Shown one piece after another: positions 359 to 63,867 of a stretch of 64,000 nucleotides of DNA (position 1 is its first letter; each line of letters begins with the position of its first letter). This DNA is from Tubiluchus corallicola (taxonomy: Eukaryota; Priapulida; Priapulimorpha; Priapulimorphida; Tubiluchidae). Location of the stretch: positions 186,001 to 250,000 of the forward strand of contig JAQGDQ010000132.1 of assembly GCA_030141605.1 (NCBI GenBank), in the 5' to 3' direction. The notes beneath the pieces were generated by a model that was not told the DNA's origin, did no database searches, and saw only the letters and a program-made list of their open reading frames with translations. A program made the translations under genes and the position numbers.

Positions 359-3300
359 CTTTCCAGCTTCTTTTCCTTCTGAAGCTGTTCCAACATTAAA
401 AAGATGCAGGCATCCATCACCACTGACAACCAGCAAGTAATTAGTGCCAATGTTACAAACGTCCGCCACTAAAACCACTATGATCTGAAGGTAGAAAAAC
501 AAATTACACATATTCGCGAATAAATTTATAACATTGTTTTCAATTGTTTACAGTCGTACTAATTAAAATTTCACTGGCTAAAGTTTACAATTCCCACACA
601 CAAGAAATTAGTTAGGGAAGCGGATTAGGGTTAGGGCTAAGGTCAAGGTTGGGGTTGGGGCTGGGGTTAAGGTTAGGGTTGGGATTGGGATTGAGGTTGG
701 GGTTGGTGTTGAGGCTAGGGTTAGCATTAGGGTTAAGTGTAGGATATTTAAAATTTAAATTGCGTGGGGAATTGTGAACTCCTTCCACTACACCTCGCAG
801 AAGGTATATATGCACAAGCCCTGCTTTTAAATATCTACAACACTTTTGCATTAAACATAGTCCTCAAGCTGGAACTAATATCATAAATCTGTGTAAACTT
901 CCATGTAAACTGCACAAGATGTAACACTTAGTAATGCAACATACATGTCTTGTGAAATAAATGGCAATCTTGAAGGTTGAATCTTGAATGATATCCTACT
1001 TGGTTACACAGGAGTTTAAGAAAGCTCTCCAAGGCTGTAACTTAATGACATGTCTTACAAAAGGTTTCCAATCATCATAGAAGCATGGTGGCGAACAGAA
1101 AAATGTTGCTGTTTCTAAATGAATGAAGTATATTACAGTAGTGTCATATCTACTAAGTCAGCTGCACAGGCAAGTACAGAATCATCTAGAAAAATTTTTA
1201 TGTATAAAAAAGCACGATTTAACAATAATACAACTTGCCATTCCCAAGCCAGATGCACGTTTCCATGCTACGGTATTACTCCCTTTGAAAATAAATAAGT
1301 CGCCATTAAGACAACCCACAACTAGCTCTGAATCCTGTAAAAAACGAAATTTATCTAAATATTAATCAAATGAGGCAAATTTGATTTCGAATAACAGTTA
1401 CCTGGGAGAAAAAAATCAAACTTTGTAATAATACTGTAGCTTGTTATAATTTTTGTTAATTCATTAGCATATTACCCACATACAGTAATATCCAAATATG
1501 CTAATTCAATTACCCAAAAATAAAATAGGCGTGACTCTTGCATTAATGTACATTTATGTATGAATAAATAAGAAATAAAAAATTAATTATACATAGTCAC
1601 TACTGCTATGTTCACTATATATGTGGCCTACCTCAAGTCTTCGGCATTACACATACGCAATGACAATAGCGCACTGACAGCAGCAAATTCAAGATCCAGC
1701 AGCATCAGGGTTCATTTATTGGAGACAGTTGTAGTGGAACAGGAACCTAGTTATTATCAAAGATATCATGCCTACCAGTGTCTTAACTACATTCAGATGT
1801 ATGTATAGTTTATCTTAGTAAAGAAAATAGCTGTGGGTAGACGAAAATATGCTACAGCAGTTCTCATGGCAACCAGCTGTCCATTTACACTAGCAGGGCC
1901 ACTGTTGCTTAACTTTTGGTCAGTAAGCACACCACGTGCTACTCAACCATTTCTTTCATCCCCAAAACTGTATACCCTAGTCCACTTACATACTATCTTG
2001 AAGTATTAGGGACAAAAAGTACTAAAATTATGAAAAAAAAACATTTCATTTTTACTACACACCATTTTCTTTTATTTGTCTTACAGAAAAAATAAAAAAT
2101 ATGGGCTTGCACATGTTATCTTTTTCCTCATAGCTGTTTGTCATTGGGATGTTACTAAAGTAACAAAACTTAATGAACTGTAAACTGGTAAAATCTGGAA
2201 AAACGAACCAGCACACTGAGAAAATAATGGTTTATGCTTTATCTTAAAGGAAGAAATAAAAACTAAAGAAACATGATACAAACAGGCATAATGTTAGTAC
2301 AAACATAACACATTATTAAAAAGGGAGCTCACTTCTTCCATTATTTTATAAAAAGTCTGTGAGTTTTGAAATAATAAACACTGCAGGAGATAACCACAGA
2401 TTAAGAAGAGCTATGGTTCTGTCATTCAATTTGGGAAACATTTCTTTACTTTCTTATTAGGTTTCACTACTTTCTGCTTTTTTATTGGGTAAATAAAATT
2501 ATAACTGTAGGTGGTGATTACGCATCTAAATGTAATTCTATATGAAGTATGAACTAGCGATACAAGGTAGTGAAAATTGACAAATTGACTGACTTAGGTT
2601 TTATACAATATTTATGCCGGTTAAGTAGAATTGGATAATTGAGGAAATCTTACAAAGAGTTATAATAGCCTTGGGCAGAAAAGCACATGCACAGAATTTT
2701 GTGTGCAGGTTTAAGTGCTTTAAGGCAAATGTGACTCTACCACTTGAGTTCAGTGGTTCAGTGGCAGCACTGTCAATGATTTTATCTCTTTTACCATTAT
2801 TCAGGAATTTCATACATCAGTGGTGCATTGAGAAAAATGAAGCTTTCTTTCTTCAAGTTTGCTGATTACATGAAAGAAATTAGACAAGAGATTATAGAAA
2901 TGTAGCAAAATCTGGTACAATATTTACATCAAAAAGGCAATGAGATTGATGAAGTTTATACTCAGCACAGAAAATGTAAGTGATCCATGTAGAAAACCAG
3001 AGTGATTATACATGATACCAATTTATCTGTCAGGAATGTAGATTTGTCTAAAGTCATTGAGGAATTTGAACGGCGGTGGTCAGCATAAGCTAAATTTCTA
3101 AAGTTATTTCATACAAGATCAAGAAGTGCAGTTTAACTGTGTTCCTTGGTGTTACCGGCAAAACCATCATGTACAAGAAAAAATTTTAGTTCTTCTGTTC
3201 TACAAAACACTGATGAAGATGTCAGGCAAGTCAGGACTTCTTATCATTGTAAAAACACTTGTACATTGTAACAAATACAGGAACAAGCTGTTTACATCAT

Positions 3301-5951
3301 ACCTGAACAAGATTTTTTGCAACTGAAAAGCTAGAATGTCTTTATAAAAATCGGCCCGCTGTTAGACTCGAAGAGATGGACTTACTGAAACATTGGCAGT
3401 ACTGAATCGCTGTAACAAATTAAAACTGTTTTTCGAATGGAACCACAGGTTGACTGTTTTCGCTTTAACTGGAGAGGCATATGGTGATCGTTACGAAAGT
3501 GATAACATGGTTTTGATGATGAGAACTTATTGGTGCAGAATTTGGTTTACCTGCGCATTATATATGATTCCTGTTCAAGGCGCTCAACACTTACCCACTG
3601 TACTTTTACCAATTCTGGCAAGGAACAAGGCACACTTTGTTCATCAGTATTTGATGTATCCTGGTTTAGCAAAGTTAATAGGCTACTTTGCTCAGTCGCA
3701 AGAGTGTTGCAAATAGTGAAACAGTGTGGTGATGGGAAACGCCATTTTTCCAGTGGATCAGTAATGGTAACAGCTGAGATGTTGGAAAAGGCCAGGAGAC
3801 GTGTTATCAAAGAAGTTCAGGATACAATTGAGGGAGAGTTAGAAAAATCGACACCAGATAAAGATGATAAACCCACTGGTAGATTTATGATGGATTTTGG
3901 GTGGTTGGCAGTGGATGCAGTGTCATGTCATTTTCACGTGGGACAACCAGCTACCCATTATTTTACCGTATGGACATCCATTGACATGGCTTTTCATGGA
4001 AGAAGTTCATGCTCCAGGGCATCTTGGGGTTGCGGCAACTCTGGAAAAGTACTGGGTTCCTCGTGGAACACAATTGGCCAAAAGTGTCAAGCACAGGTGT
4101 ACAATTGTAGACGTGTTGATGTCAGAGCAACGAAACAGGTAATGGGCCCTCTTCCAGAAGAAAAACTTAAGCCAGCTCCACCTTGGACAAATACAGGAGT
4201 TGATTTGTTTGGTCCATTTAGGGTATCATTTGGGAAGGCATATAGAATTCTGTTTGTGTGTTTAATAACAACGGCTGTCCACATAGAACTTGCAAACAGT
4301 TACTCCACTGGCAGCTTTCTTTCATGTCTTCCTCGGTTTGGTGCAATCAGAGGCTGGCCAACAAAGATGTTCAGTGATGGTGGGTAACGTCTGAGAGCAG
4401 CAGGCAAAGGATTGTTGGAAATGCATCAGCAGCTAGCAGGAAAAGATGTATCCAAATTCAGTGCTTCAAATAGATTTGCTTGGGAGTTTAGCTCCGCACA
4501 TGCTCCATGGTGGCAGGGGACAACAGACAAGTTGATTCATACATCAAAAAGGGCAATTTCAATGAGAGTTGGATGTGCGCTCATGAGCTATTCCGAGTTA
4601 CAAACTGTTCTTTACGAGGTGATGCAGCTGATAAACCAGCGACCTCTTCATGTAGATATTTCAGAGGAGAAGCATTTCAAAGCTTTGACACCGAATGATA
4701 TGTTGCTTAGTTGCAGCTCTTTGAATGTACCTCCACGTCTGTGGAACTACAAGGCATCATACAGAGATCGCTTTAGAGTGATTCAGACAATTGTCGACAT
4801 GTTTTGGCGCAAGTGGAGCAGAGACTGTGTGCAAGCCATGGTAGTTCGTCAGAAGTAGCATCATAGAGAGCGGAACATTCAAGCAGGAGATGTTGTGTTT
4901 GTTGCTGACACTAACACACTGCGAGGAGGGTATCAGTTGGCAATAGTCGATGAGGTGTTTCCTGGATCAGACGGAAATGTTCGTCATTGCATCGTCAAAT
5001 ACAAAAATATCAAACCAGATGAGGATGCTAGGAAGTATGGTGGTGCAACATATACAAGAGTGAGATGGCCAGTTCAGTGGTTGGTTATCTTGTTCCTGCA
5101 GATAGTTGGGAGATTTAAAATAGCACCGCATCTTTGTCATCTTGGGGGTGTTTTGTTAAGGAAACAATTTGATAATGTGCATTTTGTTACGCGGTGGAGC
5201 CATAATTAGTGTTTTTTAGACTTAGACTTAACAGAAAGTGGTAGTATCTTAGGGAGGTGCTACCCTCCTTTGGTAATTTGCCTGTAAAAATAATTTACCT
5301 ATTGCTTAAGCTGTTTACTGTACTATCTATTTACATACCATTGACTGGGTTTCAGCTAGAGTTAATGAGGTGTAACAGGAGTCCTGCCTATTGTATGTTG
5401 GGCAGTAGTAGTTCAGGCTTCATAGTCTGCTGGTAAAGTTCAGATTTCAAATGTCATAATGTAGTTTGTTAAGGTACGTTTGCTTCAAATTATATTTTGT
5501 GGTTTTTGATTTACTTAAACTGAGGTTAGTGCTTTAAATTTAATTTTTGTTGTAGTGTGTTAAACCTAGAAAAAAATATTAAGTTCCAAATGTTGCTTTT
5601 TATTTTCATTATTTCAGACTGCAATTTATGTTGAAACCCCCCCTCTCCACCACCTTCTCTTCTTTTTTGAGCACAGTAATAAAGGAAATCAACCTGTACC
5701 AAATTGTTCCTCATTTTTTGTTGAGGTTATGGGTTACCACATGTTGACAGATAGACAAACACAACAAAACACTCCAGATTTTAGAAACAGCAGAGAACGT
5801 ATTGTGTAACAACCAGCTAGGCTAGAATACTACTAATCAATAAGTAATAACATACATTATCATTATCCACGTCCCCAAGTATGATGCCTTTCATGCATAC
5901 ATTTCCTGATACGCTGAACTCAAGTTTGTCAACAAACGACACAGCCCTCAT
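359..5951 (-). CDS. ITFG2: ITFG2 homologue (KICSTOR subunit), 5' part, three exons; continues off the left edge
   Basis: ITFG2 is an FG-GAP/beta-propeller-like protein of the KICSTOR complex, which holds GATOR1 at the lysosome to restrain mTORC1. Exons read on the minus strand are 5951-5856 (32 codons, from MRAVSFVDKLEFSVSG to LGDVDNDN), 1334-1232 (from DSELVVGCLNGDLFIF to WKRASGLGMAS) and 477-359 (VLVADVCN, then LLVVSGDGCLHLFNV). These match the first ~90 residues of vertebrate ITFG2 in order (MRSVSY, LGDVDND, ELVVGD, GDVCN, GWFHLFD, recalled from memory). Phases agree: exon 1 ends in phase 0, exon 2 leaves one base, and exon 3 supplies two. The exon 3 acceptor is placed at the second AG (before TGGTTTTAGTGG) because this gives the family spacing exactly. 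The exon 3 donor (GTGCCA) is weak. Intron 1 (1335-5855) contains the retroelement/COLGALT chimera. Later exons are outside the window. Confidence 0.82.
478..1231. other. ITFG2 intron 2
   Basis: Non-coding between ITFG2 exons 3 and 2. It contains the G-rich telomere-like tract at 611-740. Near 950-975 there is a short AATAAA-bearing stretch that could be the tail of an old retroelement, but this is weak. I see no gene here. Confidence 0.6.
611..740 (+). repeat. Degenerate TTAGGG-like tandem tract (interstitial telomere-like repeat)
   Basis: About 20 units of roughly six bases, mixing TTAGGG, TTGGGG, TTAAGG, CTAGGG and TTGAGG, with the G-rich strand on plus. TTAGGG is the usual animal telomere repeat, so this looks like an old interstitial telomeric tract that has drifted. 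It could instead be a G-rich minisatellite of independent origin. Read on the minus strand it gives a meaningless Asn-Pro-rich ORF. Confidence 0.7.
3490..3647 (+). pseudogene. Copy of the 5' end of the COLGALT gene (truncated)
   Basis: This stretch matches the start of the intact COLGALT gene at about 7185-7380, including roughly 30 bases upstream of its start codon. The translated piece shows IWFT, then VQG, then QHLPTVLLPILARNKAH, identical or nearly so to the intact gene, which continues HTLPQYLGY. The match breaks off at about 3647, where BEL/Pao pol sequence starts at once. A block of about 20 bases present in the intact gene before the shared ATTGGTG is missing. Only the signal-peptide region and the first residues of the mature protein are represented, so it is a non-functional fragment. 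It could come from a local DNA duplication or from template switching during reverse transcription; the parent region has no intron to tell these apart. Confidence 0.85.
3640..5210 (+). mobile_element. Broken BEL/Pao LTR-retrotransposon fragment (3' half of pol: integrase and C-terminal domain)
   Basis: The conceptual translation matches BEL/Pao pol in order. It shows the end of the RNase H/linker region (VARVLQIVKQCG), an H2C2 zinc-binding integrase N-domain (EEVHAPGHLGVAATLEKYW), a DDE core starting at GVDLFGPF with second acidic site FSDGG, and the C-terminal DUF5641-type region (PNDMLL, then DMFWRKWSRDCVQ, then AGDVVFVADTNTLRGGYQLA). It is dead: there are frame changes near 3890 and 4110, in-frame stops at about 4385 and 4856, a further shift near 5080, and the usual catalytic Glu of the third DDE site is not visible. 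The run of G followed by TGTT at about 5143-5152 could be a polypurine tract and the start of a 3' LTR. Gag, protease, reverse transcriptase and a 5' LTR are not seen. It sits in ITFG2 intron 1 in the opposite orientation to that gene. Confidence 0.88.
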
Positions 5952-7222
5952 ATTTTTATTATTTGATATATATACAGTTAAAATGATGAATACGCACTTT
6001 ATACCTAATTGCACTCTGCATACTTATTAATCAACGTGTGCTTCAGTGTACTCGGCGTGCTGTACAAGTACCAGACGCAGTACATTCATAGCAAATGACG
6101 TCACGTTCAGGGAAAACAATGAATACAACTCTTAGTCACCAATTAAAAATCATTTTAGCATTTTTGTAAATACAATAGAATGGCTGGAGTGGATTCAAGA
6201 AGAAGTGCCTGCGAGCGTCGCAAAATGGGTCAATATTATAAAAATTAATCTAGTGATCGGGTGTATTTGTCTGGCTAGGAGGAGAGGTCCGAGCTGAGGA
6301 TGATGATAATAGACTTCGCGTGGTGGTGTGTGTGGTATTGAATAATTACTTCTATTAATATAGATTTAAAGCTTCGTGTCTGATATTCAGTTTTGAGATC
6401 CAACTTGCTAAATAATTTTTAGATTTACAAGGCGTACCTAATGCAGACTGGGTGCTATTCGGGTCTTTTCAGGTACCTGTTTGGGCTGTGCCAGTTCATT
6501 TCGCTCTGTTTTATTTTCTGAACGTCATTTTACGGTTGCAATTTTATGCAACAGGAAGGAGCAGCGGAAATCTGATTCATTTAATGGGAGTCTTCGGGAC
6601 AGTAGAACACATATTACTTCTGCTAATTGCTTTAATAATTTTCCGGTCCTAATAATATTTTTAACTTCTCACCTCTTTATTTTCGGATGTCGGCTTTTTC
6701 TCATTATATATGTGTCACTGATTTACCCAAATGCTTTTGACGTCACATGCGTTTTACTTGCTAGTAGCTAACAAACCTTTACATTGGCCTCACACTTTCT
6801 CTTCTATAAAAAATAGTTTCTTTATTGGCTAATTTGTATTGTACTGCATGTGTGAAATAAATGCATCTTATAACTTGTTTCTTTTCGACCATAAATACTC
6901 TTAAAAAATGAAATAATGCTACTTAGAAAATTGATACATGTAATGAAGGTAATCGGCAGACAGAACCGAATGCAACTTTAATCTGACCTTCTCAATGAGC
7001 AGTAAGATGACAGATTCATAAAACAGTGCCTTGGGAATTATAGCTCACCTGATTTGTAGGCCAACTACTGTGTAACTATACCTAATAACTTGTCGTTATA
7101 TTCTTAATAAATGAATGCTTTAATTTTCAGATTTGTGTATATTTTTCAAATGAACCAGCAAGTGTTTTACTAGGATAGTCACCTGGTCATGACAATGATA
7201 GCATGGTTTGGATGATTTGACG
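5952..7222. promoter_or_regulatory. Divergent intergenic region between ITFG2 and COLGALT
   Basis: These 1.27 kb separate the start codons of two head-to-head genes and must hold both promoters. No convincing TATA box is seen. A pyrimidine tract with AG at about 7124-7131 could be the acceptor of a 5'-UTR intron of COLGALT. ORFs at 6452-6771 overlap in two frames, lack family resemblance and are not supported. Confidence 0.45.
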
Positions 7223-9031
7223 ATGTTGCCACGAAGAAATCATTGGTGTTGCATTTGGTTTACTTGGGTATTATGTGCTGCTACTGCTTGGGACACTGTT
7301 CAGGGGGATCAACACTTGCCCACTGTACTGTTGCCAATTCTGGCAAGGAACAAGGCACACACCCTTCCTCAATACTTAGGGTATATCGACAACTTGCAAT
7401 ATCCTAAAAAGCGTATGGCACTATGGATTCGAACTGATCACAACGTAGACAATACTTCTGCAATTTTGCAGGAATGGGTGAATAATGTTGGACATTTGTA
7501 CCATTCTCATGATTTTGTTACATCTAGTCTCCCGACGTCTTTTCCCGACGAACTAGGTCCACTTGCCTGGCCACGTTCACGTTTTAAGCACATAATCAAT
7601 CTGCGTGAGCAGGCTTTAGATGTTGGACGCCGAATGTGGGCTGATTATATCTTTTACGTTGATTGTGATAACATATTGGAAAATCCAGATGTACTACAAA
7701 TACTGATGAGTAATAACAAAACTCTTATTGCACCTATGATGGAATCTCAGTACACTTCTTCTAATTTTTGGTGCGGCCAGGATAGCGAGGGTTACTACAG
7801 GAGAACAGAAGATTATTATCCTATTTTAAATAGGACTCGGCTAGGATGTTTTCCCGTTCCTGTTGTTCATTCAACTTTTCTGGTTGACTTGCGGCAGTAC
7901 TCTTCTGATTTGTTGACATTTGATAACAGCAAGCTACCCGGATACAATGGGCCATTTGACGATATTATTATATTTGCTTATTCGGCTCAAGTAGCTGGTG
8001 TGCAGCCCTACATATGTAATTATGATGAATTTGGACACTTTACTGCTCCCTTATCAGACTACGAGTTGCTTGAAGATGACATTGAAGCATTTACTGAGTT
8101 GAAGCTTGATGCCATGATCTCATATTCTCAGTGGCCATTCTTATGGAATCTGACAAAGAGACCATATGGTGAAAGTCTGCCAATGTTGGTGTCAAAGCAC
8201 ATATCCTTGCCAAAACGTAAGAAGGACTCACTTGGATTTGACAAAGTTTTCCTAATAAATCTTGTTCGTCGATCATTTCGACGAGAACGCATGCTGGCCT
8301 CTTTGGAAGAACTGGGCATAGAAGTGCAAGTTGTTGATGCCACAGATGGACAGCAGCTGAACAGCTCATGGCTCCGGGAAAATAACATTAAAGACCTGGA
8401 AGGGTATGAAGATCCATATCACAAGCGACCTATGACCATGGGTGAAATAGGTTGCTTTATGTCTCACTATAGAATTTGGGAGGAGATTGTTCAAAAGGGC
8501 TACAACACGGTACTTCTGTTCGAAGATGATGTACGCTTTGAAAACCAGTTTAGATATAAACTAGGGATTGTTATGAATGATGCTAAAAAAGTCGACTGGG
8601 ACCTGATTTATCTAGGCAGAAAGATTCTCTCTGAAAAGGAATCTTGGGTGAAGGGAGCTAAGGTTTTGGTTAATCCGGATTATACTTACTGGACACTTTC
8701 GTACGCCATTACGTTGGAGGGGGCCAAAAAATTGCTGGATCAAAAACCGCTGCGAAAGATGGTTCCTGTTGATGAATATTTGCCGATAATGTACAACAAG
8801 CATCCACGGGTAGACTGGCGTGCTAAGTTTTCGCCACGAAATTTGCGAACATTTGCGGCGGAGCCTATGCTGGTATTTCCTACACATTATACATATGAAG
8901 AGAACTATATCAGTGATACGGAAGACTCAGCGACGCTCAAAAACTCCGCTTCCACTCACCAACCCTTGCCAAATCCAAATGAGTTGCCAAAGGCAGATAG
9001 TCATTTTGCTCATAAGCACGGAGAATTGTGA
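7223..9031 (+). CDS. COLGALT1: Procollagen galactosyltransferase (COLGALT/GLT25D family), intronless, 602 aa
   Basis: This enzyme transfers galactose to hydroxylysine of collagen in the ER lumen. The ORF can be extended to 7208 only through a TTG, so the ATG at 7223 is chosen; it gives a hydrophobic signal peptide (WCCIWFTWVLCAATAW) at the N-terminus. An N-terminal glycosyltransferase domain follows, with LLPILARNKAHTLPQYL, FYVDCDN (about residues 144-150) and FDDIIIFAYS. The C-terminal GT25 domain starts near residue 338 (GFDKVFLINLVRR), with CFMSHYRIW and the acidic metal-binding LFEDDVRFE (EDD about 434-436), then PVDEYLP and FPTHYT. The protein ends in HGEL, a KDEL-like retrieval signal. 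Length is close to vertebrate COLGALT1 (about 620 aa). It has no intron, although vertebrate COLGALT genes have many and the neighbours here are split. It is head-to-head with ITFG2. Confidence 0.95.
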   Translation: MLPRRNHWCCIWFTWVLCAATAWDTVQGDQHLPTVLLPILARNKAHTLPQYLGYIDNLQYPKKRMALWIRTDHNVDNTSAILQEWVNNVGHLYHSHDFVTSSLPTSFPDELGPLAWPRSRFKHIINLREQALDVGRRMWADYIFYVDCDNILENPDVLQILMSNNKTLIAPMMESQYTSSNFWCGQDSEGYYRRTEDYYPILNRTRLGCFPVPVVHSTFLVDLRQYSSDLLTFDNSKLPGYNGPFDDIIIFAYSAQVAGVQPYICNYDEFGHFTAPLSDYELLEDDIEAFTELKLDAMISYSQWPFLWNLTKRPYGESLPMLVSKHISLPKRKKDSLGFDKVFLINLVRRSFRRERMLASLEELGIEVQVVDATDGQQLNSSWLRENNIKDLEGYEDPYHKRPMTMGEIGCFMSHYRIWEEIVQKGYNTVLLFEDDVRFENQFRYKLGIVMNDAKKVDWDLIYLGRKILSEKESWVKGAKVLVNPDYTYWTLSYAITLEGAKKLLDQKPLRKMVPVDEYLPIMYNKHPRVDWRAKFSPRNLRTFAAEPMLVFPTHYTYEENYISDTEDSATLKNSASTHQPLPNPNELPKADSHFAHKHGEL

Positions 9032-12000: not shown

Positions 12001-13379
12001 AATAATCTAAGCTTGTTTTGCACTTTATTTTAACTGGTCAAGGGATATTCCTTCAACATACTGTGACCATTCATAGATCAACCCAATCTTTGGCAATGCA
12101 AAAATTTTGTCACAAAACTTGTACAACATTATTCACTTGAGATGTGCCACCTTCTGCAGTACATCTAACTGTATCGGAGAAATAGTACTTTTTTGTAAAA
12201 ATGCAATAATTAGGTCATATTGGTCTTTAGAATCTCCTTTGCGATCTTGAAAGTGTCACCTGTGCATGGAACTCATCCCTTCATTTCTTTCAAAAATACT
12301 GAATTACTGATATTTGATATAATTCTGATATTCCAGTCCGCTGACCTCTCCAAAGTTGACAAGCAGGCCAAAAATTAACAAAGTTAGAGAATTATTGAGA
12401 AACAAAGAAAAACTGCTTGAAAAGTTTTTATATTTGCCATAAAATTATAAAACAGTGATTAGAGACTAGTTAGACCAATGGACAGACTATACAGAGTCCT
12501 AAAAGCTGATTTTTTCTTGTAATAAGACTGTCTACTTTCTTTTGATTTAGATGAAAATTAGAGCTTAACACTGATTCGGTAAAATTGTACATCCCTTGAC
12601 TAAATTTTATCACTTCTGACTTTTACTGCTACTGTAATCAGCTGGGTTTTACAAATTGCGCCAAATACCAATTTACCAAAGTCATCATTTCTATTTTCTT
12701 CTCTAAAATGTTACAAATGAAAACGAAAATTTCAAAAAAGAAAAAGCAATAGCAGAAGTACAAAAATGCAAAAAGCAGATTGAATTCGACATTTTGCTCA
12801 CTTATCATAAAATGATTATATATGTAAATAGGCTTTGGTAAACATATTTCACCTCGAAAGTATCTATTATTACAAATGTTGTACAACCATAATTGTACAA
12901 CCAGTCAGAAAAATCAGAAAATAAACATGATTTAGCAAAAATAACTGACCTCTACTCAAATTATTTACCAAGCAATCGAACTGAATCATTTTAAATCACT
13001 TTCGACATCTAGTTAGTAATTAAAATACGCTGACACAGCAATGAAACTGTTCTGCTGCTAAAACATACTTTAATTTCAAAGACAACAATGTCACAAACAA
13101 TAACAAAAAACATCAGCACAACTATGTTTGTGAATGATGTCGCAGCTAAGTCATACATAAACAGTAACAGCTTAGCTTCCAGTCACCAGTGGGAAGCCAG
13201 AAAACAAACTGTACAACTTATCTTCTGATCTAGTCTTCAATATATAAACATATATAAATGTTGTCCTCAACATATTCTGTAACAAGGAGATCATATTCCA
13301 TTTAGAATGGAGGTATGATCTAGTATTTTCCACGTCAATCATCATAAATTTTTGTACAACAACAAAAAAATGAACAGTG
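9032..13379. other. Gene-free region between convergent COLGALT and GIT
   Basis: AT-rich DNA without a supported ORF. It must contain the 3'-UTRs of both flanking genes. The scattered short ORFs (for example 12638-12886 on minus) are low-complexity and show no family resemblance. Confidence 0.6.
9067..9072 (+). terminator. Candidate polyadenylation signal for COLGALT
   Basis: AATAAA lies 36 bases after the COLGALT stop codon and is followed by a T-rich stretch. Further AATAAA copies lie downstream (for example near 10055), so the 3'-UTR could be longer. Confidence 0.4.
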
Positions 13380-28300: not shown

Positions 28301-31300
28301 ATAGAAAACTATTAACATAGGCACTTTCATGTGCGCATGCTGTACAAAACCTGAATAACTTTTTATAGAAATGTAATGTCGATGTCCCATGTCAAACATC
28401 AAACTAAAAATGCATCAGTTTTAGTTCACATTGATTTTAGTAATTATCAGAACGTAACTCCAACCATACAGCTATTAGTAAGCACAGTGTGGTATATAAC
28501 ATACAGTAATACTGGCAACAAGACAAAGCATTCTAAACTGGCACACGAGTAAATTATTTAATGTTGAGGCTAAAACTAAATGTGATATAAAACAAGAGCC
28601 AAAACCATTTTCAGAAATATTTTGCTTAACGGTGTCGTTGCTCTTACAAAAATCCGAGAAAGCCTTTCGTTAATCACATGCTAAATATTAGATAACGCGA
28701 AAAAGGGATAAGGAGAAATCAAAGCCCTAATGCCATATAAACTTTTGACATATGAAATGAAAATTATAGTTCAAGTAAGAAAAAAGCTTTGGCATGTTCT
28801 GTACTGATCCTGCAGCACAGTAAAATCAACTTATAAAGTTGATGTGGCAAAATGTTGTATAAATTATCCATCTAAACTGTATCTGACCAACTGCATTTTT
28901 TTCAAATGAATTCAACACAAAATCAAGGTTTTAGTACCCTAACTTATTGTCATTGATGCCAAAAAATTTGGGCATTTCCTTGTGACTATATAGGTAACAA
29001 GAAAGTACACAATACACACATAACTACAGTACACAATGCAAAATCAAAAGGTTTTGTTCATTGAATATTTTTGCACTTTGAGTAGTCCTTTTGCTCAAAA
29101 TTTTGAAATTTGTTTTACTGTCGCTGCACAGTATTTAAGGCAATGGGTTAACTTTTACGCGCTGATATGCATCTACTACGTGCTAGAGTTTATACAGCAC
29201 AATGGCTGCTGTCTCCTTTGTTTACTAGAAAAATTTATAAAAATCATTTATACTATAAATATTTAACAACTTTCGATATTGAAGTTACAAGATGCAATTA
29301 TCAAATTACCATGTGCTTTTTACATTTCCTATGTAGCCTGTATCGAAGTTCAACTTTTTAAATATTTTTCAACAATTTCGTTGAACACTCGTTACACAAA
29401 ACAATTAAACTCTAAACAAAAATAAAAAAATAATAAGTAAAATTTAGAACACTAACCATAAAAGAAATTATATTGTTTTCCAAGCTGAAGGAGAACAAAA
29501 ATTTGAATGGAAATGGGATTCATATTTAGCTTTAAGTAATCAAGAACCAAGAACTTGTGAATGCAAGTACTAAACATTGCACTTACTGCACTGGGTCTTT
29601 GGGTGTGGGTTTGCGGCGACCTGACTTGCCAGCTCCTGGATCCAAAAGATTGTGTTCCCAGACCGAGTTGGCACCATTGTTTACCAATGTATGAACCATC
29701 TAAGAAACAAAATGAAAGACACATGATGTTCATTTGCAAAATAAAATCAACATCACCTGCATAAACACTTAAATTACTTGTGATAATAACACACTAAACT
29801 TTTATTTTCTTACTAAATGCACTAAATTTACATTTAAAATATCAAAAAGCTCTCCTGAGAATTGTAATTTTGACATAATAGGAAATTTTGAATGCCCTTG
29901 TAGTCCCAAAATAACAGGTATTAAATTCAGGCCTTAATAAGATTCAAAATAATACAAAAATAAATGATCAAGTATACACTGCTAATTAAGAACACATTTC
30001 ACAACAAATTAACATTTAAAAAACCTAAAATAAAGTAGCAAATTACAAGCCTGGAATTCATACAATATTAAACTAAACAGTACACAAATAAAATTTGCGC
30101 AAACAGCTGGTCAAATATATCAGGAATTTTCTTACTGCTAATAGTGTTGGACTCCAGTATCCTTTCTTTAATGACTTCACCATGGAAATATGACGACCCA
30201 GGCTTCGATGTATGCTGCAGCATTCATCACAAATCAACACCCCACGGTTTATTGAAGCCCAACACGGGTCTGAAAAACAAGCAAACATGTAATCTAATGG
30301 GAGACTGAATGTGGGTGGTAAAAGAAAATCTACAATTACTGATATGAAACCTACAGGCACACAATAATAAGCAATTATATTAAGTACGAAAAACAAGCTA
30401 AACATGATGATTAGCTTAAATTTATTTATTTTCACTACTTAATCATAAATCTCTGAGACACAGTAAAATACTAATTAAAATCAAGATCAGTTCTATAAAA
30501 GCCCAAAACAAATAAAAAAATGCATATATGCTTTTCAAGAGCATCATCAGTTGCTGGAACTGTTATTGAGAAGGGTAGTTGACTCGATAACCAACGGTTT
30601 TTCACCACCCTTTCTCCTATGTCCTTCTGTATATCATGTACATACTACTGTGTATTCAATGTAAGCTAAAGGAGACAAATAAAATAATATCTATCTATCA
30701 TTAAACTGCTGTTAAGATCTGAAAACATGCATTATCAAAATTCCAGGGGATTAGCCACCTTAACTTTTCCAGACTGCAAAAACCCAAAAACATTCGCTTG
30801 TTTAGTATTGAGAAAGTATTGATGGCGGGTGATCTTGAAATCCAGGAAACAAGGACACATAGAAGGGCGCTGAACAGCTTGATCCACATGGCAAGTAAAG
30901 CCGAGTTGGGAAAAAGCAAATATTCTTTACCGCAACTATTTCTGATCTGTTGATTTAGTATAGAGTTGCAGATCACGATGGGAGAAATTTTGCTGACAGG
31001 AATTCATAGGAAACACCCCAACCAATAGTTCCAACTGTTCCAGAGTCCTATACTAATTGAGAGCACATTAATTGTCTAAGAAAGTCATTACCAACAAACC
31101 AACATGCCACAAACAGTTGCTTATCTTAAAAAAGCAGAGGCCGCTAAAAGCACACTATAAACAATCTCTACCTAAAGATAATACATACGGATTTAGAACA
31201 GCCTGCTAAAAATCCAAACAAGCTAATGAAGATTAGAGTTTATGAATGAAGATAAATAGCTGTCACATGGAATAATGACATATATATTGCGTATTTGACC

Positions 31301-33895
31301 TTTGAATGACTCTTTGATTGCAGCTTAATTGAAAGATGGTGTGAATTAAATCCTCACAAGCATTTCTTGACCATTTACTTAATAAACATATAGTTCAGAA
31401 CGTTTGTTTTTGGCCCATTGTCAAAAATTTTTGTGCACAACAGATCTCTACACATATCCACAGAACAAAATCCCATCATGAAATATACCAAACATTGTTG
31501 TCCTAGCTACAAAAAAGTCTGTCAATAGGTACAGAGTAAGACATTTGAGGAATGCATTATGGACAAAAGGTTGAAGGCCACAAACCTGCAGTCAATGTAG
31601 AACAACAATGCCTCCATAAATATAAATATATATAAGTATCATGTTTAGTTTTGCATCTTAAAGATATAATTCAAACTGTGTGCAATGCAATGACTCTCAG
31701 GGACGACAAAGAGTACCACCTAATACACATACACTTAACAACGTAAAAATTTCAGTACATAGGTAAATATTATTAAAGTCATAGCTCTTGTACAAAATGT
31801 TTTAACAATGTACATCACAGAACATAGCAATGAATAGTGTAATTAGTAAGCAGAGCTGTGGATAAAAAATCAAATCAATCAAATCAGAGAAAATAAGCCT
31901 ACTACAGTATACATATGTAATCTGTAAACACAAGCAATATTTGTTTTGAAATCTTACAATCATAATTGCAGAAAAACGCCATTTCAATATTTTACCATAG
32001 TTCCTTTCTAAAATAATTATTCATAGTTTTTGCTATGATTCATTAATGGTACAGTCAACTAGCAGTGGCGTCGTGCTATAGGGGCCCGCCCCCCCCAATT
32101 TTTTAGAAAATGTCAAAATGGCAAACGGTGAGCAAATTTATTTCCGACTTTTTGACACACAATAGCAGGCCAGCGCTCCCATAAATGCGAACAGTATGAG
32201 CGTTTCGGTACAGTAGCCCAATAATATTTTTTATCATTAAAGTTTGTCGCCGAGTTAAATTATTCTGCCTGTTAATACGTACCTGACCAGATGGTTTACC
32301 TGAAAGTCAGGATGTAGTTAATTTGTTTGCATGTAATCTATTCAGGAGGCAGGCAAGAACAGTTAACAAAGCAGCTCGTTGAGTAGCATTAGGGTCTTTG
32401 CACAAAAGACTGTTAGTTAACAAAACGCCTCAGTTAGCACTCGAGCTTCGTTCAGCAGTGTGTTATAATAGTGAACAAGTGAAATAATAGAGCAAAAACA
32501 ATGCAAACATAGAAGTCATGTTGAGCTAGCCTAGTACCAGAGAGTCAGTTTGTCCAGCTAGCCTAGTACCAAAGAGTCGGTTTGGGAGATACAAATTGAT
32601 GAGCCACCTCCTGATTGGACATTACCGACTCTTTGCTACTCCTTAGCGACTCTTTCCCACGAGTTTGCTGGATAAAAGGGCATGATTTTGAGCACATTTC
32701 ATCATTTTTGTCCTACTAGGTCTTTTCGCCGAATCTTTGGATTCCTGACAGCTAATAAATACTTAATTAAATTTTAATTTAATTTTAATTAAGTTTCCGT
32801 TGCTATAGCTTTAAGTTAAATGCCAGTTAGGAATAAATAAATTGTTTTTCTTGCACGCAAAATACTTGTGTGGGAATTCAAGATTATACGTTTTTTAAAC
32901 AGTTAAGTTCCGCCATTATATACAGTCGGGGCCCCCCAATTTTTTTTTGGTGCACGACGCCCCTGTCAACTAGAAAAGTGGTAACTATAGTTTTAGAAAA
33001 AAATATAAACAAAACACATATAAATATAAAAAGTTTATTAGCTGTTGTTTAATAAATGGAGTTAATTAAAAATTACGAATAATACCAACTCCAGCGTTTC
33101 ACACCAGACTCAGAAGTTTCACACCAGAAGCATTTATTGGTAGAGCATTAACCAGCTCTGTTGGCAGATTATTCTAATTGCTAATAATCATGTTTTTGTA
33201 CTTGGTAATATTAACTAATCGTTTTAACAATTTACAGTTTTTCCTGTTGTATCCTAACTGTTTAACAGGTGGCAGTAAGTTATCTTTCCTGGACTGTTTG
33301 ATTCTGTGTAGCAAACAATGTGTCTGCAGTAGATCTGTTCTTTTCCTTCTAACTTTTAAGGATTGGCTATTGAATGATGATTCCATATCCTTTTAATAGC
33401 CCTCTGGCTGATTTGGTGGCCTTTCACTGAATATCTTTGATAGCCTTGCAATAACATAATGTGAACTCTATACCATTGATACATATTCCAAGTGAGATCT
33501 AACTAAAAATATATAATTTCCTAAACATGTTGCTATCCATGAGTTTTAAAAAGCTCGTGTATCCTAATGTTTGTTCTGTTCCCCCATCTTTGAGCACTTC
33601 TTTTGTTATCAGTGCACTTGATGATATGCATAGGCTTTGCAGACCAGCTAGGTGAGAACTTGAAAAAACTTTCCTGCGCAGCCTAATGCCAGTAATGGTT
33701 TACCTACATAATCATGGATAGACAAACGTGACAGTAAAAACGTGCTCGTGTAGCTTGTGAGATTAGCATAATCTTAGAAATAATACCATTAACATCACCA
33801 AGCATTATAATTATTAATGAAGTAAACTAGGCTTTACCAGAAGCAGTACAATCAGCACAAATATCACTCGGATTTCGTATCTTTCCTCTAGCCAT
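13380..33895 (-). CDS. GIT1: GIT family ArfGAP and scaffold protein, complete, 16 exons, 743 aa
   Basis: GIT proteins inactivate Arf6 and scaffold PIX, PAK and paxillin at focal adhesions and synapses. Exons on minus: 33895-33838, 30269-30136, 29699-29587, 27106-27004, 26290-26070, 25454-25262, 23901-23804, 23049-22853, 21956-21760, 20766-20710, 20126-19977, 19855-19634, 16601-16540, 16027-15869, 15152-15089, 13583-13380. Their sum is 2232 nt with matching phases. Domains: ArfGAP zinc finger C13-x2-C16-x16-C33-x2-C36 with Arg finger in SIHRSLGRHIS (R41); NGANSVWEH; ankyrin repeats about 137-235 (TTPLHIAAKAGQPAQVELL); two Spa2-homology regions (SLDLSELAKAAKKKLQ and QKLARFNAREFATLIIDIL); YDSVASDDDS, matching a conserved GIT tyrosine site; coiled coil about 457-525; C-terminal FAT-homology helices (FVPCSEKI, LHTECRK, VIQCAYDIAKSAK). 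Length matches vertebrate GIT1/GIT2. It probably represents the single pre-duplication gene. Confidence 0.95.
14862..14926. repeat. Imperfect inverted repeat (hairpin) in GIT intron 15
   Basis: Arms of about 23 bases, around AATTGTTTCGACTACAACAG and TGACTGTAACAGTTGAAACG, pair with a few mismatches around a short loop. Its origin is unknown; it could be a remnant of an inverted-repeat element. Confidence 0.4.
15515..15585. repeat. Hairpin-forming inverted repeat in GIT intron 14
   Basis: The arms ACTAGCATG...GGCCAGCAG and CTGCTGGCCCATGCTAGT pair over two 9-bp blocks, interrupted by a 4-base bulge (CCAG) on one side, with a loop of about 30 bases that itself has GGG/CCC pairing. It could fold into a 71-nt stem-loop on either strand. 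Confidence 0.5.
17269..18065. mobile_element. hAT-like non-autonomous DNA transposon (797 bp)
   Basis: The left end starts CAGGACCGGCTCT, and the reverse complement of the right end reads CAGGGCCGGCTGT. Both then run into TAGGCA-like and CCTAAGG-like sequence. The flanking octamers are GCCAGTCG and GACAGTCC (6 of 8 identical), fitting a decayed 8-bp target duplication. CAGGG-type ends with 8-bp duplications are typical of hAT. No transposase ORF is present. It lies in GIT intron 12. Confidence 0.7.
18442..18859. mobile_element. hAT-like miniature element (418 bp)
   Basis: The left end is CAGGGGCATAGCCAGGC, and the reverse complement of the right end begins TAGTGGCTTAGCTAACAG. The subterminal GGAGCAGC and GGGAGCACC also match. 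The flanks ATAGTGCA and ATATGCAC are only partly alike, so the target duplication is imperfect. It has no coding capacity and lies in the same GIT intron as the element at 17269-18065. Confidence 0.6.
22046..22058 (+). repeat. Poly-C run
   Basis: A run of about a dozen C just beyond the 5' side of GIT exon 9 (in intron 8). It is unusual in such AT-rich DNA; simple slippage is the likely cause. Confidence 0.6.
23963..24520. mobile_element. Inverted-repeat miniature element with TTTAAAGGGAAACC-type ends (558 bp)
   Basis: The left end reads CTTTAAAGGAAACCTGGAC, and the right end reads GTCCGGTTTCCCTTTAAAG, its near-perfect inverse. There is no coding capacity. Internal sequence around GCCGTTAATTAACTTTCTAA resembles the interiors of the copies at 35840-36390 and 58010-58595. 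The superfamily is not recognised from the ends. It lies in GIT intron 6. Confidence 0.7.
24378..24903 (+). repeat. Direct tandem duplication, two copies of a 263-bp unit
   Basis: 24378-24640 and 24641-24903 are almost identical, with only a handful of substitutions. The unit contains the last ~143 bp of the miniature element ending at 24520 plus about 120 bp of its flank, so the duplication came after insertion. The high identity suggests it is recent. Confidence 0.9.
27190..27262 (-). repeat. tRNA-derived SINE head (relic)
   Basis: On minus, TGTAATGGTTACTCACTGCC resembles a pol III A box and the GGTCTTGGGTGCAAGTCCC region resembles a T arm/B box; TTGGG pairs with CCCAG around a 7-base loop. 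No acceptor stem forms, so this is not a working tRNA gene. It lies in GIT intron 3. Confidence 0.55.
27354..28244. mobile_element. Inverted-repeat element with tandem-repeat termini (891 bp)
   Basis: The left end GGGTACATGACATTTGGGC and the inverse of the right end, GGGACAGGTCATTTGGGTGC, are related. TGTTATA flanks both sides (27347-27353 and 28245-28251), a likely 7-bp or, with one mismatch, 8-bp target duplication. Inward of the left end is a run of about eight 12-16 base units like GGACATTTGGGCACA (27360-27470); a shorter inverted version lies at the right end. There is no transposase ORF. The family is not recognised. Confidence 0.65.
30540..30700 (+). repeat. Possible LINE 3' tail
   Basis: A stretch ending in GGAGACAAATAAAATAATA followed by ATCT repeats resembles the 3' end of a non-LTR element with a short tandem tail. 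No coding sequence is recognisable. It lies in GIT intron 1. Confidence 0.3.
32063..32965. mobile_element. hAT-type non-autonomous transposon with perfect 8-bp target duplication (903 bp)
   Basis: TCAACTAG flanks both sides (32055-32062 and 32966-32973). The ends are CAGTGGCGTCGTGC and, inverted, CAGGGGCGTCGTGC (13 of 14 identical), followed by GGGGCCC/C-run sequence on both sides. The ends and the 8-bp duplication are diagnostic of hAT. There is no transposase. An internal 32-base unit (GCTAGCCTAGTACC...) is repeated at 32525 and 32557. It lies in GIT intron 1. Confidence 0.9.
33100..33400 (-). mobile_element. LINE ORF2 C-terminal relic
   Basis: The minus-strand translation gives SLKVRRKRTDLLQTHCLLHRI, then LLPPVKQLGYN, then NNLPTELVNAL. 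This order (L..RR.R.DL..., then NNLP...VNA) is that of the carboxy end of non-LTR reverse transcriptase polyproteins of the CR1/RTE-like kind. Stops interrupt it. It lies in GIT intron 1. Confidence 0.55.
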
Positions 33896-35608
33896 AATTC
33901 AAACAACAATAAATATTTATTTCTATTTATAAATTTAGTTGTTTTACAACAAAACTTGCATCACTTTCTTCCAATATGAAATGAACGATTGAACCATCAA
34001 GGCATCAACAGTCAACACTCGACACTACACTCTACAAGCCATCGTCCAGGCTCACCTAGTCAAAAACTGCTAAATTTTGCTCCGATTCGCCAGCAGTATT
34101 ACAAATATTTTTCACGTAATTTAAAAGCGTTGTGCTTATACATTTAGATTAAGTTTGACCACTTGTTCTTTGTTAATTGTGAACTTAAACGTATGCCGAA
34201 GCAGCTAATGCCGTGTAAAGTGATTGCAATAAGAGGATAAATTGATCATGTGAATCAAGTACTATCAGTCTATCGCCTATGTATCGATGCATGCTTAAAG
34301 CCGGGTAAGTGTAATTGTTTAAATTTGTTAATATTAAGGGTACATTTGCATTGCGTTTTTCAATTTTATTGCATAATAATGTTGTGGTAGATGGAATTAC
34401 AATTCGTTTATTTAATTCACCCGTTTATAAAACTATTGGTGCAATCTTATATAATTATAGTAGCATTATAATTAACATTCCATTGCTATGTATAGGTGAA
34501 GGGGTGGCGAAAGGCATGATAAGTCATTGAGTCAGCTTCCCCAAAATTTACTACAGTGTTGACTATTATTATGAAGAAAGAAAAATTTGCAAATGGTTCT
34601 CTTTACCCACAATATATAATGTTTACATAAAATATTATAAAAAGTATGTGCCTATTTATTAATGTCACTAACTTTGAGTGGGTACTTTGAATTATACATC
34701 ATGTATCTATTACTAGTATTAGTATTAGGTATTGATGCTGCACTTGCATTATATAAATTTATATAATCATGTACATATATAATTATTTGTATAAGAATAT
34801 ACATATCATATACAAGTACACACATACAAACATTATACACATCGCATGACTATGGATATTTACAGTATTTACTCGAGCAGCAGTCCTACACGTCAAGGAA
34901 ATGAGAATTATTACTATAAGTGCAAATTAATGGAGCAGTAGATACTCAATATGCTAAGCGAATTATGAATTTATTTCCTTTCATAAACTCCTTTTGGGTA
35001 TCAAAGTATTCACAGTAGAAAACTTGTGATTAAATGCAAAAGCAAACCACCTACAAGGTCAGCAGTTAAAGAATTTGCACAACAGTGCTGCCATCTAGCA
35101 GTGAAAATAATTCAGTAAATACAATAATAATATAAACATACCGATTTAGAATGAAACTCATAAGTCGTCCCTTTCCTTTGAATATCTATCTGGTTGTAAT
35201 CCCTTTTGTTTTCTATGTCCGATTTTTGTTCATTATAAGCCCTGCTTTCTGAATGGCTGTACCCTTCTAGAATTATATATGAAATCCTAATTATCTAACT
35301 AACTTAGTTACAAAGTTATTATTATTTAAACTATTAGTTTCCTCATTATTATGTCTTTACAATATATGAGTGTATTATGTAACATTGGTGTTTATTTTAT
35401 TATTATTATACTGTGTGAAATATGAAAGCAAAACTAGGCATAAACTGATCATCCCAGTAATGTGACTTCTCCAGTAACTTAACGGCCACTGAGTACATTG
35501 AGTAGAAGTGAATGTAAAGTTTAAAGCTTTTAAGTTGCCTTATTTGTGTTCTTATAGCAGGGAATTTGCTACTAGGAATAGAGAACAGCATATCCACTCA
35601 GCGTGACT
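33896..35608. promoter_or_regulatory. Divergent intergenic region between GIT and RHNO1
   Basis: These 1.7 kb between the start codons of GIT (minus) and RHNO1 (plus) must hold both promoters and 5'-UTRs. The AT-rich low-complexity part around 34700-34830 has TATA/TACA-type simple sequence. No motif can be assigned and no gene is seen. Confidence 0.4.
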
Positions 35609-38600
35609 ATGCCTAGACGTAAACGACGAAATGAGAATAAGGCACCGCTTGTGTTTGCTGAAAGTCCAGTTCACCTGAGAAGGAACGCTTTCAGCCCCAT
35701 ATATGGAGCAATCAATCCAGTGACTGCTAAAGTGATTCCTGTGGATGAAACAAACTGTACATGGGTAAAAATATAAAAATCTCCATAGAACTTTAATATT
35801 TTATGTGTAAAATTTAATGAGTAACGTGATTAATGCAAAACCTGACCCAATCTTAAACTGTAGGTCAAAACAATCCACTATTTAAAATATTGAAAGGAAA
35901 CATACTATTTTTTCAAAAATGACTTACGTGAAAGAATTGTTACCACTCAAACACAATTTTGCACTCGTGCCACTAGTTCTTTGCTGTTACATGCATCTCA
36001 ACATTAGCTAGCTAGATTGTCACTAACGCCTGCATTTCGGAAATGCACAAAAACAGGTGCTGTACCTTTCAGTTCAGACGTATTAGTTTGTGATGAACTG
36101 CACACATTCGACAGCTCATGCGTGATTTGATTTTTCAGTTTTTATCTTAATACTTGCCTAGTTTTAGTACAACACACTGAATGTTTTACAGTGGCACTGT
36201 ACTTTAATTTTCTCTTTTGCAAATAATGTTAGTTCGTGATGTCATCAGTAGTTGGGCTTGCCCTTCATTAATTAAGTTTTTGATCTGTTATGATGGAGCT
36301 CCATCTGTTGGTGCTGTTTTCTGTTTTCTGGTCTTTTAACTTTCTAATTCTGATTCCAAGGTTATAGTTGAAAAGCAGTCAGTCTGAGAATATCCTTGGT
36401 TCCAGGTTTTTCAGTATTAAAAACTGATTCACTGTAGAATGTGCAAATAATATCTTGGAGAACGTGGAATTTTAATTCTTGGTAGTATATATACTTCGTA
36501 TTTCAAATATGGCAAACAAACAATCTGAACTGTTGTTGAGTGTCTGCCATTAACAGTACCGAAATAATTTTTTTCCAGATTTCACCTCATTTTCGCTTCC
36601 CTGTGACGCCGTCACAGAAGAAGAGCAGGCGGAAAAGTAACTCTACCATTGATACTGGCCGTGACAATCAGGAAACTGTCTCTGTTCATACGTAAGATAC
36701 TTGTTTTTTAAAATTTGACAGATTCAACATCAACAGGCCTGTAATGACAGATCGATATATCGATGCTCGTGATATATTTTATTATGATTATCATATTGTC
36801 AAAATGCACCCGTATCATGTTAATCTGAGTCAATGATATTTAGCAATGTGGCATGCGCTTTATCGTACCTGATAAAACTTATATGAAGTGATTCAAGTTG
36901 CAGCTGTAGAGTGTACTACAAATAACTATCAATCAGTGCAGTGAGCAGTAGCTGACTTAGCCAGCAGCCAAAGCAGCTGAAAATGCAAGGTGTTTAATCT
37001 GTAGTAGGCTACTTACGTTGTTTACATATAAACTTATGAAATGGCAAAAGTGAACCAGAAAATGCACTGGCAACTTTTAAATCTATAATATTGACATGTT
37101 TTGCATTTTTGATGGCTTACAGTGCAATCAACAGCCTATACATTACATAAGCAATCAATAAGAATCAAACAGTTTGTGGAGTTAATATTAACATTTAGCA
37201 GTCCCAAAACTGTTGATTGGTAAAATATGTTTAGCATTTATTATCAACAATTTCATCTAGTTTTTTACTAAAACCTGCCAACGTAAACTCGGGTGTATCA
37301 TGATACGTATCACATAGTGAGGTTCGTATCGTGATATGCATCGTATTGTGACCTATGTGTATAGTTGCAGCCCTGGTCAATAGAGCTCTATCTAGTCATT
37401 GTTTCCATGAAAATGTTTTGTAAATTATTGTAACGTGTTGTGTCAAACTTGATGAAGTAACAGGTTATGATTGGCAGCAACTTCAAATTAGTTCTATGTG
37501 TCTTAAAATGCAAATCTTATACCAATTTAAAATTTTCAAAGAATGTAAAAAGAAAATGTTAAAGAACAAAATTATAGATTGTTTTACTAAATCAGTGATC
37601 GATTATAGATTATTTATGAACAGCCTGTCAATCTGTGAAGTGGAAACCTTTTTAGATAGAGCAAAGAATGAGTTGAAAAAAATAAAAACTTTCAGTCCAT
37701 CCATGACTAAGAATCACCCACTAATTAAAAACTTCAAAGATGCCCAAATATCTTGAATTGGGTTTGGCTAATATTTTGTTTGTGCTGGCAGTAAAACTAT
37801 CAAGTTGTATGTCATTCTGTCTGCCAAGATCATCGTACTCTTGTTTGTTTTATCAGAAATTTTTCATCTTACCATATAATAGTCAAAAATCAATATTTAA
37901 CTTAACAGTTTCTTTGTCTTGCAAAGGCAAACTATACAGGCTGTAAAATACTGATTTCAACAATTGGAAGAAATTCAGTACTAGTGCCATATTGCAACAC
38001 TACCAGTTTGCAAAAACTGCCTTGGGGACGAGGTGTTTGTTTCAATTTTTTCAACCAGTAAGTTAGAGCAGTTATTTTCAGAGTTGATTGTGCTGATTAG
38101 TTCACATTTATATTATAACACAACCACTAAACACACTGCAAACTAGCTAGTTAATTACAATAGATAGAAGTTCATTGTATATATATAATAATATATAATA
38201 TCATTTTGTGTGAAGCATATATACAGGCAGACTACGATAGAGATTACTACTGAAGTGCACTCATGAGCAACAAAAACCGTAGCGTAGTTCCATCTCACGG
38301 TTCAGGTGTGAGGCTGATTCAGAAGATACGATTAAGTACCATTGTTAGGGGAAATACAGCAATCGTTGCAAGAATTTCTATGGTGTCCAGTTGCAACAGC
38401 TTGTACAGTTTTATGTCAGTTTGACATTTATTTTTTGCAGGTTCAGATCTCGTAGGCTGTTGCCATTACCTTTTGTGGGAGATCGGCCCATTGGTTCAGT
38501 ACAAAGTTTTGCACATCAGGATGATGCAGCAGACTGTAAAACAACACGACGCATCACCAGACAAATGTCATCAAGAAGAAAAAACTATTTACAAAGTCAA

Positions 38601-39290
38601 GTAAAAGTGAATGAAAATCTCAATATACCAAGCATGGTGGCAGCAGACCACAAAGGCCATACTGGAGTGACAAGTCCATTAACAAACAATTGTCTTTGGA
38701 ATGAAAACAGTGGGCGTGAGCTAACTGAGGAATCATTATTCAGCACGGTGGAAAAGCCCGATTATGTGACATGCAAAACCAAGCAAACTTCTGCTCCCTT
38801 TGTGGTGCAGGGTGGCGATAAATCAAACACTCTCACATGCAATTTAGTTTGCAGCCCGCTAGAAAATTTGCCACGGGGTTTGTTGGACATTGTTACACCC
38901 GAAGTTGCAGATAATACTCCCTGCAAGTTATCTAATCATTCAAACTTTCATACTGACAAAAGTGAAATTAATCAAAATACGCCTTTACGTGCTGAGTTGT
39001 CTACTCAAGCATTTAGCCACCTCAATAATCATGTTTCGCATGTGAATTTTCAGACTTATAATGAAAAGAATACACCAAGGCCCAAGGCATGTAAAGTGAA
39101 ACAAGTTGTGTTATTTAAGTCACCCATAGAATCGAGTAATTTACGCTGCAAAGCTGGTGCACTTGTTGATGATACTCCAGTGAGAGAATACGGTCTAACT
39201 CTACGTCAGCGGCAGATAAAACGACTAAAATCAGATGCTGAAAACTGGAAAAGGGTACTAGCCGAGAATAAAAAACTAAGAAAATTGTAA
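35609..39290 (+). CDS. RHNO1: RHNO1 (RHINO) homologue, three exons, 372 aa
   Basis: Vertebrate RHNO1 binds the 9-1-1 clamp through RAD1, promotes ATR signalling after DNA damage, and works with polymerase theta in mitosis. Exons: 35609-35764 (phase 0), 36579-36691 (leaves two bases) and 38441-39290; total 1119 nt. The N-terminus is basic (MPRRKRRNENKAPLVF), like the PPRKKRR...KAPLLF start of the human protein. TWISPHF (residues 51-57, across intron 1) matches the SWVSP-type RAD1-binding motif. Near the C-terminus, LVDDTPVREYGLTLRQRQ matches the conserved DTP...YG block before a basic, helical end. The middle is low-complexity and Ser/Thr/Asn-rich, with several TP dipeptides. It is longer than the human protein (about 238 aa). 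It is divergent from GIT and convergent with PSMD12. Confidence 0.82.
35840..36390. repeat. Dispersed repeat copy A (same family as 53593-54285 and 58010-58595)
   Basis: Shares long, clearly related blocks with the copy at 58010-58595: ATGACTTACGTGAAAGAATT, CGCATTTCGGAAATG-like, TTGTGATG...CACA, CAATTTTCTCTTTTGCAAA and AGTTGGGCTTGCCCTTCATT. It is non-coding, interrupts RHNO1 intron 1, and its ends are not resolved here. Confidence 0.75.
36734..37375. mobile_element. Probable hAT-like miniature element (642 bp)
   Basis: The left end CAGGCCTGTAATGACAG and the inverse of the right end, CAGGGCTGCAACTATACA, look like hAT ends. GATATATCG-like and CGATACGAACC-like subterminal sequence is rich in short palindromes. 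No matching 8-bp target duplication is seen, so the boundaries are provisional. It lies in RHNO1 intron 2. Confidence 0.45.

Positions 39291-46792: not shown

Positions 46793-63867
<17,075 letters not shown>

Follow-up and report, generated by a model that had tools for sequence, protein, structure and literature searches.

The locus analyzed here raises the question of whether ITFG2 and RHNO1, which are near neighbors at human 12p13.33, are also linked in the priapulid Tubiluchus corallicola, and of what would account for such linkage. The window, i.e., the whole stretch of 64,000 nucleotides that was analyzed, corresponds to C1534:186001–250000; contig C1534 has a length of 536,771 bases, and the assembly consists of 343.5 Mb in 2344 contigs. 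A search of the assembly for COX1 gave no match. The size of the genome, the uninterrupted frames of COLGALT and PSMD12, and the divergent RHNO1 would fit an animal other than a vertebrate. Positions without a contig prefix are those of the window. From left to right, the window contained ITFG2 (−), COLGALT (+), GIT (−), RHNO1 (+), PSMD12 (−), and a KIAA0930-like gene (+) (Table 1). A preceding sequence-only reading had placed ITFG2 on the minus strand and RHNO1 on the plus strand about 30 kb apart, with COLGALT and GIT between them, and this arrangement was borne out: the start codons at 5951 and 35609 are separated by 29,658 bases (29.7 kb). No other host gene was recognized between ITFG2 and RHNO1 in a codon-score scan of ORFs, which genes with small exons could escape. 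The span assigned to the locus in that reading, 359–39290, gave the spacing correctly, whereas its left end marks only about the third exon of ITFG2, and the gene continues at least 6.35 kb past the window edge. Two divergent gene pairs were observed, ITFG2/COLGALT, which is arranged head to head (5951–7223), and GIT/RHNO1 (33895–35609), with 1.3 and 1.7 kb between the ATGs, respectively; each pair possibly shares a promoter.

Table 1. Positions of the genes, exons, and domain-encoding ORFs in the window, with the basis of each assignment
Feature	Position	Strand	Basis and remarks
ITFG2 exon 3	~359–486 (ends approximate)	−	VADVCNIGTNYLLVVSGDGCLHLFNVGTASEG; by eye
ITFG2 exon 2	~1233–1334 (ends approximate)	−	DSELVVGCLNGDLFIFKGSNTVAWKRASGLGMAS; by eye, without separate HMM match
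ITFG2 coding exon 1	5856–5951	−	MRAVSFVDKLEFSVSGNVCMKGIILGDVDNDN; MRAVSF...LGDVDNDN, then GTATGT donor; named by eye
COLGALT	7202–9028	+	Single long open frame; Glyco_transf_25, E 4.8e-33; probable ATG 7223
GIT	~33895 down to 13383	−	Five GIT-type domain ORFs over Pfam cut-off
GIT first exon	~33830–33895	−	By eye
GIT ArfGap ORF	30076–30438	−	Pfam over cut-off
GIT Ank ORF	26057–26389	−	Pfam over cut-off
GIT SHD ORF	22806–23084	−	Pfam over cut-off
GIT coiled coil ORF	19962–20204	−	Pfam over cut-off
GIT GIT1_C ORF	13383–13619	−	Pfam over cut-off
RHNO1 exon 1	35609–35764	+	MPRRKRRNENKAPLVF...NCTW; PF15319 match
RHNO1 exon 2	36579–36691	+	ISPHFRFPVTPS...; completes W-x-SP-x-F motif
RHNO1 exon 3	38441–39290	+	TOPBP1-BRCT1-type motif ALVDDTPVREYG; 37 residues after its T
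PSMD12	40613–41977	−	Single open frame, convergent with RHNO1; PSMD12-CSN4_N, E 4.7e-92
KIAA0930-like	54876–64000, on to about C1534:250374	+	DUF2045 over cut-off; later exons by eye

ITFG2 is a KICSTOR/mTORC1 component. A Pfam profile search of the genome with PF15907 matched four ITFG2 exons over the cut-off at C1534:179648–184365 on the minus strand, to the left of the window, and this locus was the only one listed genome-wide at E ≤ 0.001. The product of the first coding exon resembles what we take to be the N terminus of human ITFG2. Intron 1 of the gene holds a stop-interrupted remnant (3506–5206) named by eye as BEL/Pao-like, one tested piece of which matched DUF5641 just below the cut-off (22.2 versus 23.1 bits). 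A partial copy of the 5′ coding sequence of COLGALT was also observed in this intron (3522–3635 versus 7235–7360, 76% identical); it adjoins the remnant and was perhaps carried or captured by it.

Among the other genes of the window, GIT was represented by eight ORFs put to Pfam, five of which matched over the cut-off (ArfGap, Ank, SHD, coiled coil, and GIT1_C); for the other three, 25253–25576 and 21586–22008 matched no family, and 19568–19927 gave one weak match below the cut-off. DUF2045 was matched over the cut-off by exon pieces of the KIAA0930-like gene and by ORF 54876–55100 alone (28.1 bits, cut-off 25). PSMD12 was found as one open frame of 455 aa, which may reflect ancestral intron loss or a local retrocopy.

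Joining the three RHNO1 exons in frame at GT/AG sites yielded a predicted 372-aa model, which matched PF15319 (RHINO) with 36.1 bits (cut-off 25, E 9.5e-9) and thus belongs to the family by its profile; RHINO was the best Pfam match, the next best having an E value of 0.078. The first 108 residues (exons 1 and 2 and the start of exon 3) accounted for 35.7 of the 36.1 bits, over residues 1–89. When PF15319 was searched against the whole 343.5-Mb assembly, no match was obtained at E ≤ 0.001, and the sole match listed at E ≤ 10 was 35609–35767, i.e., RHNO1 exon 1, which aligned to profile positions 1–57 with 19.4 bits (E 0.184) and by itself stayed below the family cut-off. The large ORF at 38349–39290 gave a local alignment score of 53 with an assumed sequence of human RHNO1, the highest among the 1506 ORFs of at least 25 aa in the window, and the ORF at 35582, which corresponds to exon 1, scored one below it. 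The C-terminal 49 aa of this assumed human sequence had no genomic match at E ≤ 10. That the ORF starting with MSSRRKN, at 241 aa, is close in length to human RHNO1 (238 aa) was rejected as support, the likeness being accidental in view of the two coding exons upstream.

The assignment would be false if the large ORF encoded a disordered protein that carries a TP motif but is unrelated to RHNO1. Taken alone, this ORF indeed matched no Pfam family at E ≤ 10, PDB offered nothing better than E 0.73, and its score of 53 was reached by 21 of 2000 shuffles; against this, the spliced model exceeds the RHINO cut-off, and exon 1 is the only PF15319 match listed in the genome at E ≤ 10, so that we regard a false assignment as highly improbable. 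As judged from its sequence, the gene at 35609–39290 is a genuine RHNO1 at the level of the family. The earlier proposal that the linkage independently supports the RHNO1 call was retained only in part: the identity was confirmed by the RHINO match without recourse to linkage, and the linkage adds little to a call that the sequence itself carries.

In the spliced model, TWISPHF spans the junction of exons 1 and 2 and corresponds to SWVSPDF of chain 6j8y_D (human RHNO1, 20 residues), a W-x-SP-x-F peptide that we take to be the 9-1-1-binding part of RHNO1. Near the C terminus, ALV-DD-TP fits the rule for TOPBP1 BRCT1 binding, with hydrophobic residues at −5 to −3 and a TP site, and constitutes a putative motif; the threonine is presumably followed by 36 residues in human RHNO1, versus 37 here. 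The pattern [AVILMFC]3-xx-[ST]P-xxx-YG, written after the motif was seen, occurred once, in RHNO1, among 687,884 six-frame residues of the window and flanks (29 sources), whereas the same pattern without YG was common, with 177 occurrences in the same residues. PMC8104967 (excerpt) reports a crystallographic study of how 9-1-1 and RHNO1 interact. PMC6175577 (excerpt) describes the rule for T202 of human RHNO1 as three hydrophobic residues at −5 to −3 with a proline-directed site, and states that this motif is highly conserved among metazoan RHNO1 homologues; RHNO1 homologues across metazoa are therefore not new as such. What is provided here is a model of a highly divergent RHNO1 gene that Pfam misses from its main exon and in which both interaction-type motifs are kept, which suggests that selection holds the two binding ends of the adaptor. 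By analogy with mammals, this RHNO1 would act as a mostly disordered adaptor supporting ATR signaling: its N-terminal part with W-x-SP-x-F would bind the 9-1-1 clamp, and the TP motif near the C terminus, when phosphorylated, would bind BRCT1 of TOPBP1. No joint function of the two neighbors would be implied, ITFG2 being a bystander to the role of RHNO1.

To place the pair in a wider context, conserved genes were named over 344 of the 537 kb of the contig (the window and 280 kb of flanks) by a codon-score filter on ORFs. Fifteen were named: PCK, MAPK7-like, DDB1, RUVBL2, NR1D-like, ITFG2, COLGALT, GIT, RHNO1, PSMD12, KIAA0930, UBE2M, EIF3M, CARS1, and SIKE/FGFR1OP2. PCK had PEPCK domains, and DDB1 had CPSF_A and RSE1/DDB1/CPSF1 domains; the NR1D-like gene had zf-C4 over the cut-off and the ligand domain below it, and only Pkinase exceeded the cut-off in the MAPK7-like gene. 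RUVBL2, UBE2M, and EIF3M were supported by PDB matches; UBE2M fell just below the Pfam cut-off, and the EIF3M pieces had no Pfam match or one irrelevant match below it. A cysteinyl-type tRNA synthetase and a SIKE-family gene are on the same contig as ITFG2 and RHNO1, and the paralogue-level names DDB1, NR1D, MAPK7, CARS1, and SIKE/FGFR1OP2 are our own reading. The count leaves out a GT92-family gene (PF01697), a kelch/BTB array, retroelement and simple-repeat ORFs, and unnamed coding-like ORFs, e.g., near 153.5, 264, 302, 333.5, 353.8, and 367 kb of the contig. The kelch/BTB-like array (C1534:330586–387970) looks like a lineage-specific expansion; BTB and BACK domains were found in its first gene and the others were named by eye, long disordered and repeat-rich stretches carry a recurring FISxLGGVNPxxxDPK-like motif, and one 650-aa ORF had no Pfam match at E ≤ 0.01.

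Human 11p, 12p, 1p13, and 19q13 form one paralogon, which also contains TEAD, TULP, and KCNA genes. By the human positions that we assume, 7 of the 15 contig genes fall in this set (RUVBL2, ITFG2, RHNO1, UBE2M, EIF3M, CARS1, and SIKE/FGFR1OP2), and the other eight (PCK, MAPK7-like, DDB1, NR1D-like, COLGALT, GIT, PSMD12, and KIAA0930) fall outside it, several of them presumably on human 17. With assumed base rates of 8–16% and a paralogon chosen after the genes had been seen, the binomial chance of 7 of 15 was 7.6e-5 to 5e-3; with ITFG2 and RHNO1 omitted, that of 5 of 13 was 2e-3 to 0.04 at the same assumed rates. This excess, which depends on assumed positions and a set picked afterwards, hints at a common ancestral chromosome in which gene order was scrambled.

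That ITFG2 and RHNO1 are near neighbors in human agrees with the excerpt of PMC8303811, which lists FKBP4, ITFG2, NRIP2, TEX52, FOXM1, RHNO1, TULP3, and TEAD4 in sequence; we read this list as following map order, with three genes between the two. Further neighbors common to the human segment and the contig were sought with six families (Tub, TEA, Forkhead, FKBP_C, DCP1, and HlyIII), and none of the six was found on the 537-kb contig in an exon-wise search, which can miss genes. Tub matches were on C544 and C1718 and TEA matches on C1731 and C296, while all listed matches to forkhead (32), FKBP_C (18), DCP1 (3), and HlyIII (10) were on other contigs; these contigs may belong to the same chromosome as C1534.

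We found no published statement on ITFG2–RHNO1 synteny, either way, in the literature searched. It is probable, in our judgment, that the two genes are genuine orthologues of ITFG2 and RHNO1 and are linked by a shared ancestral chromosome with reshuffled order. ITFG2 and RHNO1 would have been linked through one ancestral animal chromosome whose human descendants include 12p; the order within it would have been largely reshuffled, and their closeness in both genomes would be either a remnant of the former order or a coincidence, moderately unlikely, inside that chromosome. The proposal that the linkage was kept since early animals is plausible in this form, as shared membership of an ancestral chromosome, on the basis of one genome and a human gene list. 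According to the excerpt of PMC7269912, linkage groups persist and gene order inside them is largely scrambled, and closeness itself is therefore weak evidence. Given a shared block, with assumed sizes of 400 to 100 genes, the two would lie within four steps of each other in human with a chance of 2–8%, whereas under random order only 0.013 close pairs are expected among the 32 human orthologue pairs of the six window genes, with orthologue numbers and 20,000 human genes assumed. Because linkage groups persist with scrambled order, and given these two figures, we prefer the shared ancestral chromosome to retained microsynteny, and the latter to coincidence.

Retained microsynteny would mean that no more than a few genes have separated ITFG2 from RHNO1 since early animals, through regulatory interlocking or low local rearrangement, with intervening genes that differ by lineage. 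It is a stronger form of the shared-chromosome reading, so our probabilities for the two overlap and need not sum to one. The spacing by three genes in the human list (PMC8303811, excerpt) and by two recognized genes here speaks for it, as does the low number of close pairs expected under random order; the lack of a common intervening gene, the different divergent partner of RHNO1, the failure of all six further families to appear on the contig, and the 2–8% chance of closeness within an assumed block of 100–400 genes speak against it, and we consider it rather unlikely. Moreover, we know of no functional link between ITFG2 and RHNO1, which also counts against it. That the two form an animal-wide microsyntenic pair predating the bilaterian ancestor, in which GIT here and FOXM1 in human reflect an exchange of the head-to-head partner of RHNO1, appears doubtful. 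Alternatively, unrelated rearrangements might have placed the genes close together in each lineage by pure coincidence; for this reading, one matching pair of 32 possible is a small sample picked after the fact, and the neighbors presumably map to human 11, 12, 17, 19, 20/14, and 22. The genome-wide chance of about 1% and the apparent excess of 11p/12p/1p13/19q13 genes, by assumed positions, argue the other way, and we regard coincidence as quite improbable.

If RHNO1 loci elude sequence search, linkage to ITFG2 may guide the search for them in further animal genomes; the ancestry of the shared FOXM1/RHNO1 promoter also becomes testable. If the pair does predate the bilaterian ancestor with its partner exchanged, the bidirectional promoter of FOXM1 and RHNO1 would have arisen later.

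Compared with known systems, the locus would resemble the conserved linkage groups of chordates and bilaterians in the excerpt of PMC7269912, in which linked genes stay together and their order is scrambled. It is like the human ITFG2–NRIP2–TEX52–FOXM1–RHNO1 segment in that only a few genes separate ITFG2 from RHNO1, and differs from it in that COLGALT and GIT, in place of NRIP2, TEX52, and FOXM1, were recognized between them and in that RHNO1 faces GIT head to head in place of FOXM1, a pairing that membership of the RHNO1 family does not demand. The RHNO1 modeled here has 372 aa versus the 238 aa of the human protein (PMC12847792, excerpt), and past residue 89 it adds almost no score to the RHINO profile (PF15319). 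In common with vertebrate RHNO1, it has an MPxxKRR-type start, the W-x-SP-x-F motif, and (hydrophobic)3-xx-TP-xxx-YG near the C terminus.
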